Source of the DNA: Bolinopsis microptera
Taxonomy: Eukaryota > Ctenophora > Tentaculata > Lobata > Bolinopsidae
Assembly: GCF_026151205.1 (NCBI RefSeq)
Contig: NC_087076.1
Span: 5,508,902-5,572,901, forward strand
DNA length: 64,000 nucleotides
Direction: 5' to 3'
Positions within the stretch are counted from its first letter, which is position 1. Every line of letters starts with the position of its first letter. The notes below the pieces were generated by a model. It was not told the DNA's origin. It saw only the letters and a program-made list of their open reading frames with translations, and made no database searches. Below are positions 3,072 through 41,220 of the stretch, in pieces. The translations under genes and the position numbers were made by a program.

Positions 3072-3393
3072 ATTATGTAATTGATTTTTATTTGGTTATT
3101 ATTATATATCTCAACTATTTGTTTCTATACTATTTGAAAAAAATTGTTTCTATACTATTTAAAGCATAGCACCAAAAGTAAACCTTATGTCATAACCAAT
3201 CACTAACCGCCTTACATCTCAGTTGTACCTCAACATGACTTCTTGACCTCTAACTACCAAGACTGGGTTCTCTACCAAAAACGCTCCATCAAGCATCGAA
3301 GTCCTCACTACTTGGTGATTTTTATCACCCAAACATAGAAACAATTTTTCATTAAGCATTATGTAATTGTTTTTTATTTAGTTATTATTATAT
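3072..3393. repeat. Imperfect duplicate of the transposon target site
   Basis: The stretch 3060-3137 is repeated at 3350-3393 and continues across the transposon at 10086. It therefore works as a near-empty-site reference for the 6.7-kb element. It also holds short direct repeats of TTGTTTCTATACTATTT. No gene seen. Confidence 0.6.
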
Positions 3394-3742
3394 CGTCACC
3401 TACAAATAGAAAGGGCCTATGTCGACATAGGCCCCTTTAAAAAGATATACCAGCGCGAATATCTGTGGAACCATACCTACCATATCCCAAAATATTAAGT
3501 CGATTGGGTGAAAATTCAAAATCTCGACTTTTTAAAGTAGGGCCTATATTAACATGGACCTTTTTCAATAAACTGAGCGGCTACTAATTTAGATAGATTA
3601 AAAAGGCACATGTCGACATATGCCCTTATAAATTGTTGAAACGTGATGTTCTTAAAACGTAGAAAGGGCCTAAGTCAACATATGCCCTTTTAAATAGGTC
3701 AAAACCCTGCTTTGTAATAGCAGAGTTAGGGCCTATGTAAAG
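3394..3742 (+). repeat. Left TIR and subterminal motif cluster
   Basis: After the TIR (3394-3423) a GGGCCTATGTC motif recurs at about 3411, 3538, 3603, 3664 and 3729. The first four are followed by their own inverted complement, making near-palindromes of about 22-28 bp. Such clusters are the usual binding sites of a transposase. A GTCGACAT core is kept in copies 1 and 3; the others are diverged. Confidence 0.7.
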
Positions 3743-4419
3743 AAACCTAGCCAGTGAAAGTGCCAGTCAACCGACCGAACTTTGCACTAACCAATTAAAG
3801 CGACATTAAAAACTGTTTGAAACATGTGATCCGGTATTATTTCAGTGATATCGACACGCTGTAATTATTTCGCGCAATAATTAAGTTCCAGAAGGCCATG
3901 GAAGAGTCTTAAGCCGCGCGACACGTTATCATCCATTTCATTTTATGCACGTAATTGTTGAGTTGTTGTTTTGTGATACGTTATGCGATTTCTGTTGCAA
4001 CTTGAATCTATTATTATACCAACCCGATTTCTCTGCTTGTTCAGTTTAAATCGCCAGGTGAACGTGATTGAACACGTGAGTTTTGTCCGTCGTATTATAG
4101 CAATCTGTAATAATTGTAATCCTGTGATAAGAATTTTGGCTCTGATCAAGTATAACTTAACTGCCTACGCCGGGACAGGGACAGCGAAACGTCAAAGAGG
4201 TGCAACTGAAGATGTGCCCGACAATTATTTATCTAGGTCGTTTTGTTTAATTTCTAACGTAAAATAAGAACATCACAAAATACAACCTTTTTAATTGCCT
4301 CCCTTAGACCGCAAAACGGAATACCTAGTCTGAATCAATATATTGCTAGTAAATAACCCGTATTTTGTGTCATATTATAGCGAAATGTTTAATCCTTAAT
4401 TCCTTTCTGTTGTGAATTT

Positions 4420-4580
4420 CTGTTCTGAACCAGAATAAATTACCTGTCATGACAGTGTATATACTAAAGCAGTTATTCAATCACGTATCGTGATACAACT
4501 GTCCAGTATCCGCTCTGATCCAGAATAACTTACCTGTCATGACAGTCTATAACAGTTATTCAATCACGCGCTACGATTAA
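4420..4580 (+). promoter_or_regulatory. Tandem 80-bp repeat upstream of transposase gene
   Basis: Two imperfect copies sharing TTACCTGTCATGACAGT and CAGTTATTCAATCACG, at about 4425-4500 and 4505-4575. Each contains the palindrome ACTGTCATGACAGG-like core. They sit 300 bp before the first coding exon, so a promoter or regulatory role is plausible but unproven. Confidence 0.4.
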
Positions 4581-4882
4581 ATGAGCTTTCGGTTTCATTT
4601 TGTGCAGGGTATAAACTTCTGTCTCAACGTATTATACTGTTAACTGTTAGCTGTGCTCTCTGTGGGGCATGAAATATCGATTTTGTTCTAACGCCACTTT
4701 ACCTTTCGATGTAGATTCAAAAGCGGCTGCACATTGTCACATTGCTGGTTTATTGACTAACATTTCTTAGCTTGGTACTTTCTTTTAGTATATTTTCTCA
4801 GTATAATTTTTGAAATAACGAGATGTGTGTTATAAGGAAATAATACATGCAATACTAAATACATTACCATCCATTTAGCTAG

Positions 4883-7800
4883 ATGACTCATTCTGTAAAG
4901 CTTCGAAAGAGGAAGGGCCGGGGCGGTACGTTATCAGTAGAGGTTAGTTTTTCACGACTTGTATAATAATAATTATATAACTAGAATCATAGTAGTTGCA
5001 TAGTTCTATTTAATAATTATTTTATTACTGCACCTGCAGCTATGAGGTAGATAGAGGTAATAAGAGAGAGGTCAGCTTTTTAACGTTAGGCAGATCGTCA
5101 GATCGTCAGATCGTCTTTATCTCAGTATTGATATTTCCCAGGATACAATGTGGTGTCCTGGGTTGCAGGTTCTTGCAAACCCCTTTCAAGACAAGTTATA
5201 CTACAAGGCTACCATTGTAAAAAGAGTGAGGGTAAGCTGCTTTACTTTTATAATTATTGCAAACATATCAATTTTTGCTAGTTTTGAGATTCTTTTTTAG
5301 GATCAGCGAGCCTAACTTAGACTAGTTGGCACAGATTGTTTAAAATCATAAACATTTCTCACTAATTTCAGGAAGGCGTCTTCAGTCTACAGTTCGAGTC
5401 TGAAAATAAGTCCCGCAATGTTTCTGCGAAATTCATGAAGCTTCTTATACTTGGAGTGGGTAAGTGTAAATTTAAAATGACACTAATACATTTTATGCCC
5501 CGTCTGATGTTGAATATGTGGTAAAATAACTAGTATAGCGGTATACCGTCACCTCTTCCACATGTAACTGTTAATTATTGCTTTGACGCAATGATTCAGA
5601 TTAGACTCAGATAGCTGTTAGTAATGGTATACTCAATACTTATCATGATATGAAGTCTAATCTGAATTAAACTGTCAAATTTTTATGTTATACATTGAAT
5701 TTATCGAATAATTCCTTCAGACGATGCAGAGGACACTGTCGTAGCAGCTGGATCTGAGGACACTGTCGTAGCAGCTGAATCTGAGGACATGGTCGTAGCA
5801 GCTGGATCTGAGGACACTGTCGTAGCAGCTGGATCTGAGGACACTGTCGTAGCAGCTGGATCTGAGGACATGGTCGTAGCAGCTGGATCTGAGGACACTG
5901 TCGTAGCAGCTGGATCTGAGGACATGGTCGTAGCAGCTGGACCTGAGGACACTGTCGTAGCAGCTGGATCTGAGGACATTGTCGTAGCAGCTGTATCTGA
6001 GGACACTGTCGTAGCAGCTGGATCTGAGGACACTGTCGTAGCAGCTGGATCTGAGGACACTGTCGTAGCAGCTGGATCTGAGGACACTGTCGTAGCAGCT
6101 GGATCTGAGGACATGGTCGTAGCCGCTGGATCTGAGGACATGGTCGTAGCAGCTGGATCTGAGGACATGGTCGTAGCAGCTGGATCTGAGGACACTGTCG
6201 TAGCAGCTGGATCTGAGGACACTGTCGTAGCAGCTGGATCTGAGGACAAGGTCGTAGCAGCTGGATCTGAGGACACTGTCGTAGCAGCTGGATCTGAGGA
6301 CATGGTCGTAGCAGCTGGATCTGAGGACACTGTCGTAGCAGCTGGATCTGAGGACACTGTCGTAGCAGCTGGATCTGAGGACATGGTCGTAGCAGCTGGA
6401 TCTGAGGACACTGTCGTAGCAGCTGGATCTGAGGACATGGTCGTAGCAGCTGGATCTGAGGACATGGTCGTAGCAGCTGGATCTGAGGACACTGTCGTAG
6501 CAGCTGGATCTGAGGACATGGTCGTAGCAGCTGGATCTGAGGACACTGTCGTAGCAGCTGGATCTGAGGACACTGTCGTAGCAGCTGGATCTGAGGACAT
6601 GGTCGTAGCAGCTGGATCTGAGGACACTGTCGTAGCAGCTGGATCTGAGGACATGGTCGTAGCAGCTGGATCTGAGGACATGGTCGTAGCAGCTGGATCT
6701 GAGGACACTGTCGTAGCAGCTGGATCTGAGGACATGGTCGTAGCAGCTGGATCTGAGGACACTGTCGTAGCAGCTGGATCTGAGGACACTGTCGTAGCAG
6801 CTGGATCTGAGGACATGGTCGTAGCAGCTGGATCTGAGGACACTGTCGTAGCAGCTGGATCTGAGGACATGGTCGTAGCAGCTGGATCTGAGGACATGGT
6901 CGTAGCAGCTGGATCTGAGGACACTGACTCGGCTATGTATAAACTCCTATACAAATCGAAAATGTTGATGAAAGCACAGCTGATATCAAGAAAGCAGGGA
7001 GAGCCTGTACATGGACATCCACTAAAAAAGGGCCATGGAAAGTTTTTGATCAAACTAGTTCACCTAAGAGAAGCATTTAAAAGCTGGACTGCGTATGATG
7101 AGGACAAACATGTATCAGGGAGTTATATTGCATGGCCAATGAATAGTGCTGTTAAAATAGCAAATTGGGGGCAAAGACCGCCTAAGGTAACTAATACGGA
7201 TAGACAAGACACTCGAAACTATGATGTTGAGGTGAATGTGTTTTGGAGCGAGTTGCAGATCGCACGAGGCAGAGTTGAAAATGAAATCCGAAACTCTGAG
7301 TTCTACACTAACGTTTTTATCTCGCATATATACCCAGAAAACGTGAAAACTATTACGGAAAGGGGTGGAGGACATGAAAACATAGAGCAGCTTCAATGTT
7401 TAAAAGTGGACAACACAATTTCATGGCCATCGAAAGAACTTGAACTAAGAATGGATGGGATACCACGGAAATCACGAAAGAGAAAAAGTGATTCAGTGAA
7501 GATGAAGCGTGACGCTAATCGGCAAAAGAAACGAATGAAAATGAAAAGCAAAGAAATAAAAACATGCAGTTGTGTAGCCAAATGTTATGAAAAGATAGAT
7601 CAAGAGTTACAAATACGCCTCAGGGAATATCATTATGAACTATCAGAGAATACAGCAGCCGGCGATAACTTCTTATCGAAATATATAAATAGAAGAACAA
7701 AGAAGTTGCATAGAATAGCAGCTGGTGACAAGCGGAAGTTCACCTTGATATATAAACTCCCAACAACATCTGAACTTCCAACAACATCGGAAGATAACAC

Positions 7801-9396
7801 AGCTGTGGTGTGTAAGGTGATGTTCTTAGAAACATTCGGCATCACTGCCAAAAAATCAAGAATCATAGTTTTTAAAAAATATGATAGAAACAGTTCTCTT
7901 TCCCACGGATTGGTTGGGAAACCCTCCAATCGCGGGACGGTTCCTGCAGTATTGAGAGCGGCAATTGAAGATCACCTGAATACCTTGCCAACTGTACCTT
8001 CACATTACCGAAGAATGTACTCTCATAAGAGGTATTTCGAGGCATCGCTAACGCTAGCCAAGCTGTTTAAACTGTTTAAAGAAAAGCATCCTGGCGTGAA
8101 AATAGGTCTAACTAGCTACAGTAACATACTTAATTCATTGAACATTGGTTTTTATAAACCTAAGAATGATCAATGCGACCAGTGTACTTCCTACAAGAAT
8201 AGCTCGAAAGAAGAAATCGATCTACTACTGTACATCGAACACATTGAGAGGAAAGACATGTGTAGAAATTGTAAGGATGCTGACAAAATCAAGGCAAAGG
8301 CATGCGACAATTTCGGAGCCTACACCATCGATATGGAAGCTGTAAATTCGTGTCCAAAGGCCGCGTCAGGTGAGTTTTACTATATCACCAAGCTTGCTTG
8401 TTATAACTTATCATGTTATAACCTTGGGACTGATGAGAAGACTTGCTTCATGTGGGATCAGACACAAGCAAACCGTGGTCCAGATGAAATCGGATCGTGT
8501 CTCCTATACATTCTGAGAAATCTGCCTGAGAACATTACGGATGTCGTCATTTGGGCAGATTCATGCGGTGGTCAAAACCGCAATAAGGAAAATGCAGCAG
8601 CAATACTGCACTTCCTTAATGTGGAAGTATCCAACACAGCGCTCCATGTGAAGACTGTGCACCTGAAGTACTTTGAACGTGGACATAACGAATCTGAAGT
8701 TGATACCATACATCACATGATAGAAGCAAGTAAGAAGAACCAAGAAATATATTTACCGGACCGGTATAAGGAGATAGCAAGATCTGCCAGCACAAAAAAC
8801 CCTATAAAGGTTTTTTCACTGGCATCATATGAGTATCCAGTATATGACGTCCACGCCCTTTGCAAGTCCACCATCATTAACCGCAATCGATACCGGTTTA
8901 TTGATCATGAGGGCAAACCGAAGGTTAACGAAGCGTCATGGCTAAGTGCAAAGCGGCTCTCGTTTGCAAAAGGCAGTCGGGCAATGACTATCAGCACATT
9001 ACCCGACCCGGAGAGAACAGATGATGATAAAGTCATTCTCACCGACAGAAAGGTAGGTTGTGTCATTTAGTTATGTATGGTTATTATGGCGCGTGATAAT
9101 ATATCAATGAACTTTTTACAAAGCTATACTCGCACTAATGATCATGACATCTTGGCAGTACCTGTACATTTATTCTATTGCAGGTATACGTAAGCAGCCG
9201 TGCTTCAGTAAGATCGGAGGTGGTGGATAAACCTCAACTCACAATCCTCTGCGACGATTCGACAGAGATACCTGTTTCCGAGAGGGTTATGCTTGGTCTT
9301 ATTGATCTATGTGAGAAGAGGCTGATACCACAGGGGTATCATGCATTCTACAAGAGTATCACTACTATAGAAAGTGACAAGAGCGATACTGACTAA
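4883..9396 (+). CDS. Putative transposase, five exons, about 1260 aa
   Basis: Exons 4883-4942, 5142-5231, 5372-5459, 5721-9052 and 9184-9396 join in frame at GT-AG sites (phases 0, 0, 1, 0). Residues 1-20 are basic. Residues 51-79 with the preceding exon (QDKLYYKATIVKRV ... FSLQFESE) resemble a Tudor/SH3-like barrel. Residues 85-480 are 44 copies of a 9-residue repeat (VVAAGSED plus T or M). A basic, NLS-like region (about 662-690) precedes paired CxxC motifs (C898/C901, C927/C930). The core has TIDMEAV (D950), WADSCGGQN (D1026) and GHNESEVD ... H..IE (E1070-E1081), spaced like a DDE RNase H fold. The ADSCGGQN block is, from memory, typical of DUF7869 proteins. Catalysis is inferred. Confidence 0.8.
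5595..5666. repeat. Inverted repeat in intron 3 of the transposase gene
   Basis: TTCAGATTAGACT (5595-5607) is perfectly inverted at 5654-5666, with a 46-nt loop that also contains an inverted AGTA...TACT pair. It could fold in the intron transcript 55 nt before the acceptor. It may equally be a small relic insertion. Confidence 0.5.
5735..6922 (+). repeat. In-frame 27-bp minisatellite, 44 units, with 216-bp higher-order repeat
   Basis: Exactly 44 units of 27 bp (1188 bp), each coding for nine residues, with no indel. Units differ mainly at one codon, ACT or ATG; rare variants code E, P, V, I or K. From 6275 to 6922 the T/M pattern is TMTTMTMM repeated three times exactly (3 x 216 bp). The first half is irregular. 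This shows recent expansion by unequal exchange of 8-unit blocks. Confidence 0.95.
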
Positions 9397-9779
9397 AACA
9401 CATTCCATATTTCTACATTTGCAGCATTTTTATTTTACTATTTTCAATTTCATGGGACAATTATTTTATGCAATATTCATCTTAGGATGAATGTAGACAC
9501 AAATTACACTTATTGAAATATTATACACCTTTTAAATTATTGGAATATTAATACAATTTAATTCTATTCATCTATTTATACTAATAATGGGATTTAAATA
9601 AATCGTGTTCACTGGTTATTGAAAATACAGCAACCTGTTATGAAATCAATAATGTGGCAAACTGAAATTAAACATAGACCATTTAAACCCATTACGGATG
9701 CATAAAATGCCTACTTCAAACGATATTAATCTACATGAGCCTCTATTCCAAGTGTTTGTCAGGAATAAACTTGAAAAGT

Positions 9780-10085
9780 TAAAAGGACTTATGTACACAT
9801 AAGCCCTGTACCGATTCTCACATGTAAGATATTTCAATCAATTAAAAGGGCCTATGTATTGAATATTTTTTTAAAAGGGCCTATGTCAAACTTAAATCAA
9901 TTATACCAATTAGTCAAAAAGAGCCAAGAACATTTTTATATTGTAGAACAGTCAATCTTTCCATTTAAGATGCATAGAAATCAAATTCAAATGCTTATCC
10001 TAGATCAAATTTCGAGAAATCGGTTTTTATGCATTATCTCAAAACAACTTTTTTTGACATAGGCCCTTTCTATATATAGGTGACG
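9780..10085 (-). repeat. Right subterminal motif cluster and right TIR
   Basis: GGGCCTATGT motifs occur at about 9846 and 9875, a diverged palindromic copy lies at 9781-9810, and the terminal copy is inside the TIR (10056-10085). The right cluster is sparser than the left, an asymmetry often seen in cut-and-paste elements. Between the gene end (9396) and 9780 nothing else is recognised. Confidence 0.65.
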
Positions 10086-10861
10086 ATATCTTCACTATTT
10101 GTTTATCTTTAAAAAATTTACTGACCTCAGCCTTTTGGTTTTAAAACCCGTAATATCGATAACTATAGTCGGAATGTCATGGCACTTGTTATATATCATA
10201 ATATATCATTATCCTATCTTATATATCGGTATATATTGATGATATATTCTATTTATAGGGTCTTCATGACTAGATAAGTCCTCCTCCTCAGTTCGCCTTC
10301 TTAGTCTTACTCCTCCACAGCCCTCCTCCTCCTCCTCAGTCCCCTCCTCAGTCCCCCTCATCCTTTTCCTCTCTTTCATCTCTCAATAATTTGTTAAATT
10401 TATAATTATTGTTGGTGTTATTGTTTATACAATTTATTGTTATACTAAAATGTTTTAAACGCATTTAAGTCTGACTCAAAATGTGCTCAAGAATCTTTTA
10501 GTTTAACAGAGTTTTACTCTCCAGTAATATGGATATTGTTACATGATATTTTTCATAAATAAATTGATTTTCATCCCTTATTAAAGAATGTGTAGACTAT
10601 TCTTAGTACCTAATTGAGGATTAAAAGTTTGAGAAAGGACCATGGTCATTAACCGGGCTATCCATTTCTGCAAATAGTCTGTTACAAACTGTGGAGAGAA
10701 TTTAAATCAAAAGTAACAATTTTTGTCCGTTTTTGTCCGTTCGGTACCCTATTTTCTGAAAACGGACAAAATTGAATGGACAAAGACGGACAAAAAATAA
10801 CATGATCCCCCCCCCCCCCCCTTACTAATAATCTTCAATTTATTGTTATTGAATTTCACAG
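10086..10861. other. Non-coding spacer with microsatellite, palindrome and poly-C
   Basis: AT-rich to 10260; a CTCCTC-type pyrimidine repeat at about 10278-10375; repeated TTTTGTCCGT words at 10712-10732 inverted at 10765-10796, able to form a hairpin; then 15 C at 10807-10821. No coding exon seen before the acceptor at 10861. Confidence 0.5.
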
Positions 10862-32866: not shown

Positions 32867-33225
32867 TAATTGTAATTATCCATATTTTATTTAATGAAAT
32901 ATATTATGAGTCGTTAAATCGCTTATTGGAGCAGATTCACAGTAAAACCGTACCTGAGGCAAAGTGTTAACTGTTCAAGGCAACTTCAATAAATAGAAAA
33001 TTAAGAATAGTACTAAAACTGCTAAAACGAGTATACAAAATATCATCCCCACAAAATTTTGTGGAAGTTCCAAAAGCGGGGATTGCCTCACATTCATATC
33101 GTTATAATAATTGGGGAAAATTCTCGCAAAAAATGTCAGAACACAGCAATAACAGCATGTTAATAAGATAGATTATCACTTGACCGTAACGACATGACCC
33201 GTGATCAGGTTGTATAAATTTAGTG
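32867..33225. other. Module junction with palindrome
   Basis: 3' flank of the AEIASK exon, ending in the perfect palindrome CCACAAAATTTTGTGG (about 33050-33065). It is followed directly by the second half of the Cys-rich frame (KAGIASHSYRYNN). The same flank leads into different modules at 36720 and 42060. Confidence 0.5.
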
Positions 33226-33690
33226 ATGGGTAGAGAAGTGAAGGGTATAGCGGAGAGAGCTTGTCCCAATGACATACGAAAGTCACTTGTAACAGGTTAT
33301 TTCAATTAAATTTATCTGTTTTGTCTTTTTTTTAAATTTATTTGTTTTGCCTAAATGTTGGTACATGTCATTTTTGATGTGGCTCGGGCACCTGATTGAT
33401 TTATTCTATCCAGATCAACCTGCCACCATTTACACACGGCGAGATAGAGACCAGCCACAAAGATACGTGGTTATTTACAGGAGAGATGGGAAAAAGACAG
33501 ATCATCACCCTGCAGCTCAAACTTCCCTCTGGAGGTGTATAGCAAAGGATCTATCGAGAAAGATGTCACATCGATGGTAAACGAACTCAGCAACAATTGG
33601 ACGGGTTTAAATGCTATGAAAATGAAAACCTGTTGCAAGCAAAGTACTTTTGACAAAAGTCCAGAACAGGTCGGACACTTGAAAATGTAA
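33226..33690 (+). CDS. Shortened MGREV gene with new C-terminus (485-bp unit 1)
   Basis: Exon 1 33226-33288 and exon 2 33481-33690 join in frame to about 90 aa. Exon 2 follows the intact gene to MKMKTCCK and then switches to QSTFDKSPEQVGHLKM and stops. The whole unit repeats 485 bp later. The intron contains an extra 130-bp segment ending in a GAGATAGAGACCAG-type stretch, also present at 31740-31888. Confidence 0.45.
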
Positions 33691-33711
33691 TCAGGTTGTA
33701 TAAATTTAGCG

Positions 33712-34175
33712 ATGGGTAGAGAAGTGAAGGGTATAGCGGAGAGAGCTTGTCCCAATGACATACGAAAGTCACTTGTAACAGGTAATTTCAATTAAATTTA
33801 TCTGTTTTGTCTTTTTTTAAATTTATTTGTTTTGCCTAAATGTTGGTACATGTCATTTTTGATGTGGCTCGGGCACCTGATTGATTTATTCTATCCAGAT
33901 CAACCTGCCACCATTTACACACGGCGAGATAGAGACCAGCCACAAAGATACGTGGTTATTTACAGGAGAGATGGGAAAAAGACAGATCATCACCCTGCAG
34001 CTCAAACTTCCCTCTGGAGGTGTATAGCAAAGGATCTATCGAGAACGATGTCACATCGATGGTAAACGAACTCAGCAACAATTGGACGGGTTTAAATGCT
34101 ATGAAAATGAAAACCTGTTGCAAGCAAAGTACTTTTGACAAAAGTCCAGAACAGGTCGGACACTTGAAAATGTAA
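33712..34175 (+). CDS. Shortened MGREV gene, 485-bp unit 2
   Basis: Exons 33712-33774 and 33966-34175. Nearly identical to unit 1, with one amino-acid change (EKDV to ENDV). Tandem identity points to very recent duplication. Confidence 0.45.
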
Positions 34176-34196
34176 TCAGGTTGTATAAATTTAGCG

Positions 34197-34863
34197 ATGG
34201 GTAGAGAAGTGAAGGGTATAGCGGAGAGAGCTTGTCCCAATGACATACGAAAGTCACTTGTAACAGGTAATTTCAATTAAATTTATCTGTTTTGTCTTTT
34301 TTTTAATTTATTTGTTTTGCCTAAATGTTGGTACATGTAATTTTTGATGTGGCTCGGGCACCTGATTGATTAATTCTATCCAGATCAACCTGCCACCATT
34401 TACACACGGCGAGATAGAGACCAGTCACAAAGATACGTGGTTATTTACATACACTAACAGGAGAGATGGGAAAAAGACAGATTATCACCCTGCAGCTCAA
34501 ACTTCCCTCTGGAGGTGTATAGCAAAGGATTCACTAACACTTTCCTAATTCTTTTATATCCTTTATATGGCATGAATAAATAGTTTAATAATACCAGCAC
34601 TCGATTTAGTAGACCCGACCAAGAACTTTTTTCCGGCATTGAAGTCGATTCACTCGTTACCACTGGATGAATTGGAGAATCGTTTGAAGGACAATCTCCC
34701 ATTTAAGATTCTCGCATCTTGCACTGTTGCATTAACGAAGTGTATTCCTATGTTATCACTGCAAGATGCGATATCTTGTTTGGTGAGTAGAACTGCAAAC
34801 GTAAGGGAAGCAATAAAAAAGGTAAATTTAAATTTTAATGCCTTCTTTGTATTGAGAGCTTGA
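34197..34863 (+). pseudogene. Rearranged MGREV gene, internal part replaced
   Basis: Exon 1 starts at 34197, and exon 2 (34459) breaks after the AGCAAAGGAT word at 34530. Sequence of the normal 3' flank (CACTAACACTTTCC) intrudes, and the C-terminal half resumes at 34592 (PALDLVDPTKNFFP ... KKVNLNFNAFFVLRA). The AAAGGAT junction is the same place where the 2458-bp units are chimeric. Confidence 0.5.
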
Positions 34864-38590: not shown

Positions 38591-41220
38591 TTTTTTTTTT
38601 TTTTAAATGAGGAACCTGCCAAACCCCAGGACACCAGGAGGATACCACCGGCAAAGCGGCTAATAGTACCCTCCGGTCTGTGTTGTACCGAAGAAGCTGA
38701 GTTAATCGATCATGACTCGGCTTACCAGCCAAGAGGCAAAATCTGAGCGGCACCAAGGGTTCAGAGAGTGTCATTTCAGCTTCTCCGGTGCTGGATGCCC
38801 TGGGGTTTCACATGCGCCGTAGCAAAATAAATAAAAAAACACACGCACACAATTTTTTTTATTCTTTTAGATAATACGTCGAATAAAGTCAGTGGATATA
38901 GAGTAATAAATTGCACATAAGATGGAGAGAAAAAGGAGAGATACTACTGGTTTTAAATGTGACTCTATATCAATACTAGTAGTGGAGATAACTCCACTAG
39001 CTACAACTTGTGAAATAAAGGGTATAGGTAAGGCACGGCTGAATTTTCGAGAAAATAAATAAACAAGAGTGTATAGTGGATCCAGAACTTTGGGTATAAA
39101 ATGGTCATCAAGGTATAACGTCTTTAAGGCACCGTATAATATCCGGTTTTTCACCTAATAAGAAAAGCTTAAGATGTTTAAGATATCGCTCCCAGAATAG
39201 GGGTTCCTTGTTCTGGAAACTCCTTCCAATAAACCAACAGCAAACCGAATTTATGAAGTTAACACTTTTATCTCTGTGATTTAAGCAAATCAAATAGTGG
39301 CGATATGGGTCGTCATAATTTGCGTCAATATTCGATCTAATAAACAGATTTACTCCCTGTAGGAAAGAGCTTGTGGCTGGACAGTCAATAAATATGTGAG
39401 AGATAGTTTCGAGGTTGTGATTACATAACGAGCAATTTGGACTATCTTTTTCAATCTTCATTTTATATCTCATGTACCGACAAGTACTAATCCGGTGAAG
39501 GAGCTTATATTGGTACTGAATAAGTTTGAAGTTATTTGAGAAAGAAGTAAAAATATCCGTAAAAATACTAATCCAATCAATATCCGTTAAGGAGAGGTTA
39601 GCACTCCAGTTCCTCATTGGAGGAAGGGTGCTGGGATCTAAACGCTTAGACATGGTATCTCTAATGTTTCTACCTTTGATAGTGAGAGGAGTATCTCTAG
39701 AGTTGGGGGTATTCCTACCTCTCCAAAAGCGAAGTGAAAGTTGGGTATCGATAAATGTAATGTTACTTGTAAACGTATCGGTATTATTAAATCGACGTAT
39801 TCCCAATTTTATACTCGCATATTGAGTCGAAGAGATTATACTACTTGTTTGGCCCCACTTTCTCAGAAATTGCTGGAAACTTAAGAGGTTACCTTCCTCT
39901 GAAACGAAATCAGAAAGATAGATGATATTTCTATCAATAAGAATATCGTTCCAGAGCTTGGAGCCAATGTCCGTTATTACGTCGCTTCCCCACACACAGT
40001 GGTTGACTGTACTGTTACTTGACTGTGAAGAAATAGACTTCCAAAGCTTATAATGGCGAAGTAGGTTAAAGGTAAAACCAGTATTCTTTAATGTGAGACA
40101 GTTTTCTATACACACAGTTGGTATATTTGGGTGTAAAAGCTGATTGATGATAATATTTTTCCAGGCATGTTGGAAATTAGGATCGATAACTTTTCCTATA
40201 AGTGACACTTTTAAACCTATAATAAAATCGTTAGTATAGAAGAGACCTAGACCCCCACATTCACGAGGAGAAGTAACAATATCACGTTTCAACTTATCCC
40301 TCTTACAACCCCACAAGAAGTGAAAAATCATAGTGTCTATTTTACTGATGGTGTTAGTATCAGGAGTTTCTAGTGGTATGATAAGGTAAGTGAACTGGGA
40401 AAGAATAAGAGATTTAATAATTGTGCACTTTCCTATCAGAGTTAAGTCTCTCTTACTCCAGGTGTTGATAGCGGAGCTGGCGTTACTAAGTTTACTGTGG
40501 TAGTTCATTTTGCAGAGATCAGCTCCACTAGACGTGTTGTCGAACTTGACTCCTAATGCTGTAAACTCGTTAGCTACCATGTCTTCCCCGTATGTACTGG
40601 TAAGGTAATTTCGAAGACTAGTGTTGTCTCTGGTAGCTCCTAAAGGTATGCACTTAGTTTTACTGATGTTGGGCTTACAGCCTGAGTGCTGACCGAACAG
40701 GTTGAGCTCTAGTATAACTGCATCTACGCAAGCCTGGGAGGGATCCAGGTACAGATCCGTGTCATCAGCAAACAGACTCATGAGTATGTCGATACCATTA
40801 AGGCCTTTAATATAAGGGTTATACTGTAGCTTATTACTAAGTACCTGGGACACTAGGAGGAAAAGAATTGGGGAAAGGGGGCTCCCCTGATGGACGCCAC
40901 GAAGTATGTGAACAGGGCTGCTAAGGTGTCCGTTAACGTTAGCGTAACTCATACCAGCGTGAAATGCCACTCTCACCAAGTTGATTAAATAATTTCCAAA
41001 CCCCATACCTTCCAAGACACTGAAAAGAAACTTATGTTCGACCGAGTCGAAAGCCCGTTGGAGGTCGACCTGCATAATCATACCAGTATCCTCTTGGTTA
41101 TCATGGTAATGTTCTAAGGTTAGATACATTAAGATCAGATTATCGCTGGTACTCTTCCCTTTTTGAAACCCGGATTGGGCTGTACTAATAAGTGTTGGAA
41201 ACAATTAAATTAATTAAGTG
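38591..41220 (-). mobile_element. 5'-truncated LINE with 14-bp TSD and poly-A tail
   Basis: Flanked by TTAAAATAACACTT at 38577-38590 and 41221-41234; the intact target is seen at about 28595 and 31055. The plus-strand T run at 38591-38604 is the poly-A tail of a minus-strand element. About 500 bp of 3' UTR precede the ORF 39108-41204. ORF1, endonuclease and the first part of the reverse transcriptase are missing. Confidence 0.9.
39108..41204 (-). CDS. LINE reverse transcriptase, 5'-truncated, 698 aa
   Basis: Begins inside the palm domain: SGFQKGKSTSDNL (residues 11-23), VDLQRAFDSVEH (46-57, catalytic Asp), GVHQGSPLSPILF (103-115), SLFADDTDLYLD (143-154, catalytic Asp pair). A long C-terminal region ends in a CSLCNHNLETISHIFIDCP knuckle (C-x2-C-x7-H-x4-C). 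The layout is that of L1/Tx1-like LINEs. The frame is uninterrupted over 2.1 kb, so the insertion is recent. The ATG given is only the first Met; the true start lay upstream in the lost part. Confidence 0.85.
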   Translation of the reverse strand: MFPTLISTAQSGFQKGKSTSDNLILMYLTLEHYHDNQEDTGMIMQVDLQRAFDSVEHKFLFSVLEGMGFGNYLINLVRVAFHAGMSYANVNGHLSSPVHILRGVHQGSPLSPILFLLVSQVLSNKLQYNPYIKGLNGIDILMSLFADDTDLYLDPSQACVDAVILELNLFGQHSGCKPNISKTKCIPLGATRDNTSLRNYLTSTYGEDMVANEFTALGVKFDNTSSGADLCKMNYHSKLSNASSAINTWSKRDLTLIGKCTIIKSLILSQFTYLIIPLETPDTNTISKIDTMIFHFLWGCKRDKLKRDIVTSPRECGGLGLFYTNDFIIGLKVSLIGKVIDPNFQHAWKNIIINQLLHPNIPTVCIENCLTLKNTGFTFNLLRHYKLWKSISSQSSNSTVNHCVWGSDVITDIGSKLWNDILIDRNIIYLSDFVSEEGNLLSFQQFLRKWGQTSSIISSTQYASIKLGIRRFNNTDTFTSNITFIDTQLSLRFWRGRNTPNSRDTPLTIKGRNIRDTMSKRLDPSTLPPMRNWSANLSLTDIDWISIFTDIFTSFSNNFKLIQYQYKLLHRISTCRYMRYKMKIEKDSPNCSLCNHNLETISHIFIDCPATSSFLQGVNLFIRSNIDANYDDPYRHYLICLNHRDKSVNFINSVCCWFIGRSFQNKEPLFWERYLKHLKLFLLGEKPDIIRCLKDVIP

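Follow-up and report, generated by a model that had tools for sequence, protein, structure and literature searches.

What kind of element occupies positions 3394 to 10085 of a 64,000-nucleotide stretch of the genome of Bolinopsis microptera (contig NC_087076.1, positions 5,508,902 to 5,572,901 of the forward strand; the whole stretch is called the window here), and does the gene that it carries encode the enzyme that moves it? In this study, we provide evidence from sequence comparison for an autonomous, recently active cut-and-paste DNA transposon, the single spliced gene of which encodes a putative transposase with a triad of three aspartates (DDD), and we give this reading a probability of roughly 0.87. 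Coordinates are positions in the window, and loci designated L followed by a number are numbered in their own coordinates.

The transposon is 6,692 bp long (3394..10085, + strand), as delimited by its inverted arms, by genome matches of its terminal inverted repeats (TIRs) and by unoccupied sites. The left TIR (3394..3423, + strand) agrees with the right TIR (10056..10085, - strand) at 28 of 30 positions, and the inverted arms including the ATAT flanks (3390-3423 and 10056-10089) show 94% complementarity. In the 264.65-Mb genome, a 26-base pattern taken from the TIR matched 28 times when up to 3 mismatches were allowed, and the same pattern read backwards as a control had 0 matches. When both element flanks were joined with one ATAT between them and this 243-base query was searched against the genome, two paralogous empty sites were found, one at C5:5372777-5373020 with 98% identity over all 243 query bases and the other at C5:5358082-5358246 with 92% identity to query positions 78-243. 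Both sites read ATATCTTCAC with a single ATAT, and the window reads ATAT-element-ATATCTTCAC, thus the target-site duplication (TSD) in the window is 4 bp long, with ATAT at 3390..3393 on the left and at 10086..10089 on the right. The element was most simply inserted into pre-existing sequence with a 4-bp duplication. A TSD of 2 bp, hinted at by a second, more diverged version of the flank that lies in tandem within the window (3072-3124, reading ATATAT) and to which lower weight was given, was rejected on the evidence of the two closer empty sites, each with a single ATAT, and of a relative described below (L039), with AATT. An earlier note, made from the letters of this DNA, had described a complete DNA transposon with precise ends, TIRs agreeing at 28 of 30 positions and a target duplication within an AT run; TIRs, empty sites and other copies bear out the first of these, the TIR count holds inside the ATAT flanks, and the empty sites fix the duplication as a 4-bp ATAT.

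Clusters of AAAGGGCCTATGTC-like motifs lie just inside the two ends, the left one (3410..3739) partly as palindromic pairs and the right one at 9782..10069. With up to 3 mismatches allowed, AAAGGGCCTATGTC is found 12 times in the two ends (752 bp together), where 200 shuffles gave a mean of 0.06 and a maximum of 1, which confirms the motif clusters already noticed at both ends; elsewhere it occurs once in the element interior and once in the remaining window. These clusters are probably binding sites of the transposase.

The earlier reading depended on other copies with the same ends, and such copies exist, both as a second long copy and as short derivatives bearing the TIRs. The second full-length copy, at C2:20651870-20658337, ends in the same TIRs and is flanked by ATAT at either end. 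Outside an internal repeat, 5,461 bp of it align with the window element and contain 3 substitutions, 1 of them in a piece of 2,326 bp with 19 gap columns and 2 in a piece of 3,135 bp with one 25-bp gap; the 25-bp deletion in C2 is out of frame, thus the C2 gene is broken. Among 850 comparable codons, one synonymous and one nonsynonymous change separate the two copies, too few for a selection test. A partial third copy on C152, a contig piece, has 1 difference in 2,725 bp and a different right flank, and is without the 5' part; on its 5' side (L018, 1-777) it is cut by palindrome-rich tandem sequence at the contig end, which may reflect either truncation or an assembly edge. At a site on C1, 224 bp of the right element end are kept at 99%. 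Judged by these near-identities, the element has moved very recently. The short derivatives of about 600-775 bp (L020-L024 and L030) consist of about 260 bp of the left end and about 320 bp of the right end, with 78-88% identity, and L033 and L034 (about 380 bp) are similar to the window element near one end only; no clear end pair was seen in L050-L053. L021, L022, L023 and L025 have common flanks (gtcgttcac/tgattacgta) and are carried inside a larger repeat family, thus they are parts of that larger repeat rather than independent insertions. By these comparisons the long copies look very young, and the short derivatives form an older-looking family.

The gene within the element is predicted to consist of five exons, all on the + strand and all with GT..AG borders, which join in frame to encode 1,260 amino acids, so that the single five-exon gene proposed earlier from the letters is reproduced in the spliced reconstruction. 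Exon 1 (4883..4942) encodes a basic N-terminus (MTHSVKLRKRKGRGG...), exons 2 (5142..5231) and 3 (5372..5459) encode the first and the second half of a Tudor-like head, exon 4 (5721..9052) a coding minisatellite and the putative transposase core, and exon 5 (9184..9396) a conserved C-terminus and the stop. The join of exons 4 and 5 is supported by a relative on C10, with 41% identity over 86 amino acids that run from the last part of exon 4 through exon 5; support for the head exons comes from the relative L038 (31% over 71 amino acids, E 6e-8).

Proteins of the DUF7869 type, recognizable by ADSCGGQN and GHNE, are common in invertebrates and are usually annotated as hypothetical. The earlier note had placed the window protein among them. 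Its core does belong to this circle, and three of its relatives pass the Pfam cut-off of 26 bits for DUF7869 (PF25273), with 34.1 bits in L036, 33.1 in L038 and a score within 33-38 bits in L037; the window protein itself, at 19.8 bits, stays below the cut-off, as does L040 at 23.5 bits, and L035 is without any Pfam match. Judged by these scores, the protein of the window is related to the DUF7869 domain but has diverged from it. The proteins gathered under PF25273 thus resemble it in their core, with the difference that theirs is a domain of unknown function, and here the related proteins sit in complete elements with precise ends. An NCBIfam match of L040 to a biofilm protein (E 0.19) was taken as chance.

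The argument that such a protein moves the element comes from families with termini of their own. The window core (708 amino acids) matched the genome at least 38 times, a count in which several matches are exons belonging to the same copy, and nine distant loci (L035-L043) were fetched for comparison. L035 on C10, with 46% and 55% identity in two pieces, has CGTCACCTCC TIRs and ATAT duplications. L036 (C10) and L037 (C6) have GAGGGACCACATGC TIRs and ATAT duplications as well; the C6 copy lies inside a long satellite (L037, 1-3000, ...CCGGAACATATACCCGACCT...), which was its insertion target, and the adjoining satellite unit shows the site with a single ATAT. L038 (C4) and L039 (C1) have G[AT]GGGACCACATTC TIRs with duplications ATAT and AATT, respectively, and these two copies cease to resemble each other within 1 bp of the TIR tips; taken together with the right end of L036 and L037, the loss of similarity between copies falls within 1 to 5 bp of the TIR tip. 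In total, 12 protein-bearing loci were checked for ends, of which 7 are two-ended with direct 4-bp duplications (6 ATAT, 1 AATT) and C152 has one end. The seven two-ended elements, the window and C2 copies included, form four families, with TIRs in all of them and a broken gene in some. The protein type thus recurs together with TIRs and 4-bp AWWT duplications in three further families, at about 22-55% identity to the window protein, and therefore the DUF7869-related protein is very probably the transposase of the element. As to whether TIRs and gene go separate ways in the genome, which the earlier note had raised, TIRs without the gene are found as short non-autonomous copies, as expected, and protein and TIRs together in four families, but the loci L040-L043 are without convincing ends. 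L040, L041 and L042, with about a dozen more places matching the same query range, make up a further DUF7869-like group of many copies, with the motifs ADNCSAQN and GHTFMSAD in L040, L041 and L042; L041 offered many end pairs, rejected as lying within a large inverted duplication. Outside this genome, searches with one query protein, which reaches close relatives only, found no relatives in viral contigs and none that was confirmed among 21 pattern matches in genome contigs; none was found in phages or plasmids.

Candidate catalytic residues were read from an alignment of 11 pieces, with conservation counted over the rows that cover each position. D950 (codon 8330..8332, + strand) is kept in 8/8 rows, and D1026 (8558..8560, + strand) and D1074 (8702..8704, + strand, in GHxxxxxD) in 9/9 rows each. 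The first two aspartates had been singled out before and stand; the third acid, formerly sought in a glutamate between 1070 and 1081, is better assigned to D1074. E1070 gives way to Q in the nearest relative and to other residues elsewhere, E1072 is shared with the nearest relative only, and E1081, the strongest of the three glutamates, is kept in 5/9 rows and replaced by K or T in L036-L039. Since D1074 is constant where these glutamates vary, the third catalytic acid is more likely D1074, and a glutamate in this role was rejected. The natural reading is a D-D-D triad with spacings of 76 and 48 residues, and an RNase H fold of the core is suggested by this pattern. Weak matches of the core to Colicin D (E 0.23 or worse) and SYF1 (E 0.73) in PDB were taken as chance.

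Several observations weigh against an autonomous DDD transposon. A rough propensity plot has strands at D950 and D1026 and no clear sign of the helices expected between them or at D1074, and profile searches of solved structures with the core matched no nuclease. The alignment rows are not independent, with L036/L037, L038/L039 and L041/L042 being close copies and L035 split in two rows. The window holds the only intact gene of its family among the copies seen, the C2 copy being frame-broken and the C152 copy lacking its 5' part, and the gene of L035 is interrupted as well by a frame break after CGGQNR (L035, 6871-7364), beyond which QNR is repeated, a pattern that would fit the duplication of some bases by a repetitive insert. 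The four remaining loci of the 12 (L040-L043) are without convincing ends. Identical 4-bp flanks were seen in 3 of the 9 short copies with both ends located, and two of these three share flanks; L032, the left end of which is imprecise, is counted among the nine as a non-matching pair.

The internal repeat in exon 4 is an in-frame coding minisatellite (5729..6916, + strand) of 44 units of 27 bp (EDTVVAAGS type), and tandem-repeat analysis confirmed the 396 residues assigned to it in the earlier note. The array has 44 units in the window and 36 in C2, with the rest of both copies nearly identical (27-bp period, 44.4 and 36.4 copies). L035 has a different unit with a 27-bp period (23.7 copies), L036 and L037 have a 63-bp period with 24.5 versus 2.5 copies, and L038 and L039 a 30-bp period with 41.0 versus 24.9 copies. 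Within these pairs, L036 and L037 are 97.8-98.6% identical in two long pieces, and L038 and L039 are 98.1-98.6% identical in two pieces and 93.0% in a piece spanning part of the array. In 7/7 two-ended elements the period is divisible by three; the unit differs between families, and as read from the open frames each family's unit is net acidic. By these comparisons, array copy number changes faster than the remainder of the element, and the presence of an acidic, probably disordered spacer seems to persist through the turnover of its sequence. Such differences in array length between closely related copies would turn the transposase into a length polymorphism that evolves fast.

Three of the four families have a head near the protein start, composed of a basic patch followed by a module with the pattern PG..V...F....Y..T; in L035 it was recognized by a weak profile match (E 0.026) in a separate exon beginning with ATG and KRRRG, and profile search found no head in L036 and L037. 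A profile of the three heads, searched against PDB with E up to 10, had 22 matches, of which 8 are TDRD3 Tudor, 11 are 53BP1 Tudor, 1 is DNMT3B and 2 are others. Tudor domains thus account for 19/22 matches, with a best E of only 0.075, and the reversed profile, used as a control, matched one chain, an antibody. Weak as these scores are, they support the Tudor-like head that the earlier note had described. Among single heads, that of L038 matched the Hsr-9 Tudor of Pfam (E 0.028), and that of the window matched DUF4537 best (E 0.003, below cut-off), followed by Tudor_3 (E 0.11). There is moderate evidence for a Tudor-like head in three of the four families, and we lean towards a true Tudor fold. 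The competing explanation, a chance resemblance or another small beta-barrel in the head together with a repeat that is a by-product of neutral slippage and has no role, comes fairly close to even odds: the window head alone found only PsbO in PDB (E 0.08) and no Tudor, the L035 head alone found no PDB chain and in Pfam only non-Tudor families (E 0.05 or worse), and the weak detection of the L035 head and its absence from L036 and L037 point the same way. On the other side stand the Tudor matches of the joint profile against the single antibody of its reversed control, the position of the head near the protein start in three families, and the presence of in-frame arrays with differing units in all seven two-ended elements, that of L037 with only 2.5 copies. 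A known counterpart is Gypsy-10_Ec32 of Ectocarpus, a transposable element with a Tudor domain, of which its authors knew no earlier report (PMC12477816); it resembles the window element in carrying a domain of this kind, and differs in being a long terminal repeat retrotransposon with a C-terminal Tudor, the window element being a DNA transposon, the Tudor-like head of which is N-terminal. In the literature on Tudor and transposase, no DNA transposon with a Tudor domain was seen among the titles and abstract openings listed, and earlier reports are possible.

To which superfamily does the element belong? Sola transposases are reportedly DDD enzymes (attributed to Bao et al. 2009), and the conserved D950, D1026 and D1074 of the window would agree with that. 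The TSDs of Sola2 (PMC3627910) are 4 bp long, AT-rich and of the form AWWT (ATAT, AAAT and ATTT), and the amoebozoan examples have an 888-amino-acid transposase and TIRs of 12-13 and 21 bp. The likeness extends to the 4-bp AWWT duplication in 7/7 two-ended elements of the window type and to the combination of TIRs with one large transposase; the differences are the 30-bp TIRs of the window, and its Tudor-like head and coding minisatellite, neither of which is mentioned in the description of Sola2 used for this comparison. Since the 4-bp AWWT duplication and the DDD triad are shared, the element would work like Sola2 and probably belongs there, a placement made by TSD and triad. A separate superfamily, in which DUF7869-type DDD transposases form a group of their own with a TSD that is AT-rich and 4 bp long by coincidence with Sola2, is unlikely, yet it draws on the fact that searches of Pfam, NCBIfam and PDB matched neither Sola2 nor any other named transposase family, so that there is no sequence link to a named Sola2 transposase, and on the absence of the name DUF7869 from the papers searched for it; the Sola2-type TSD and the DDD residues reported for Sola speak against it. 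Kolobok and piggyBac are similar in being cut-and-paste systems of DDD/E type with 4-bp duplications, and membership in them was rejected on the target, which is TTAA for them (PMC9587614) and ATAT here, with AATT in one relative. That the DUF7869-type gene is a passenger, or was captured from the host, and owes its movement to a transposase from another locus, is very improbable: the transposase role of the protein is read from sequence and L040-L043 are without convincing ends, but TIRs flank homologues of about 22-55% identity in four families and seven two-ended elements, these families have two kinds of termini (CGTCACC and GAGGGACC or GTGGGACC), and the three aspartates are invariant in all covering rows with the neighbouring acids variable.

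With the DUF7869-related protein as transposase of an element probably of Sola2 type, the enzyme would bind the clustered AAAGGGCCTATGTC sites at both element ends and cut at the TIR tips, and it would insert the element at AT-rich AWWT targets opened with a stagger of 4 bp; recruitment of the transposase to chromatin may be aided by the Tudor-like head, and the long acidic repeat may act as a disordered linker. More tentatively, and with the odds somewhat against it, we propose a lineage of DDD, AWWT-targeting transposons that combine a chromatin-reader Tudor head with a hypervariable acidic linker, in which the head would steer insertion or escape from silencing via methyl marks on histones or arginines and the linker would stay acidic though its unit differs by family. 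If the head is a Tudor domain, this would be the first described DNA transposon with a Tudor head, and DNA transposons would join the mobile elements that carry a chromatin reader of this kind. As an enzyme it is probably of a type already described under a different name. The features that appear to be new are that DUF7869-related proteins are tied to exact ends and a target, that they carry a Tudor-like head and that their coding arrays are hypervariable; for the head and the arrays, earlier reports are possible. The link of these proteins to exact ends, a target, a candidate triad and near-identical copies provides material for a transposition assay.

The window has further features apart from the transposon. 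An open frame at 1539-1955 contains WQADLLFHDKYWRTNKGYRY and, with what we take to be an integrase-like look, had no Pfam match up to E 0.1. A 698-amino-acid open frame on the - strand (39108-41204) contains the motif FADDTDLY and is presumably a reverse transcriptase of the long interspersed nuclear element type, and a tandem repeat of 485 bp lies at 33204-34530, with 2.7 copies and 97% matches.

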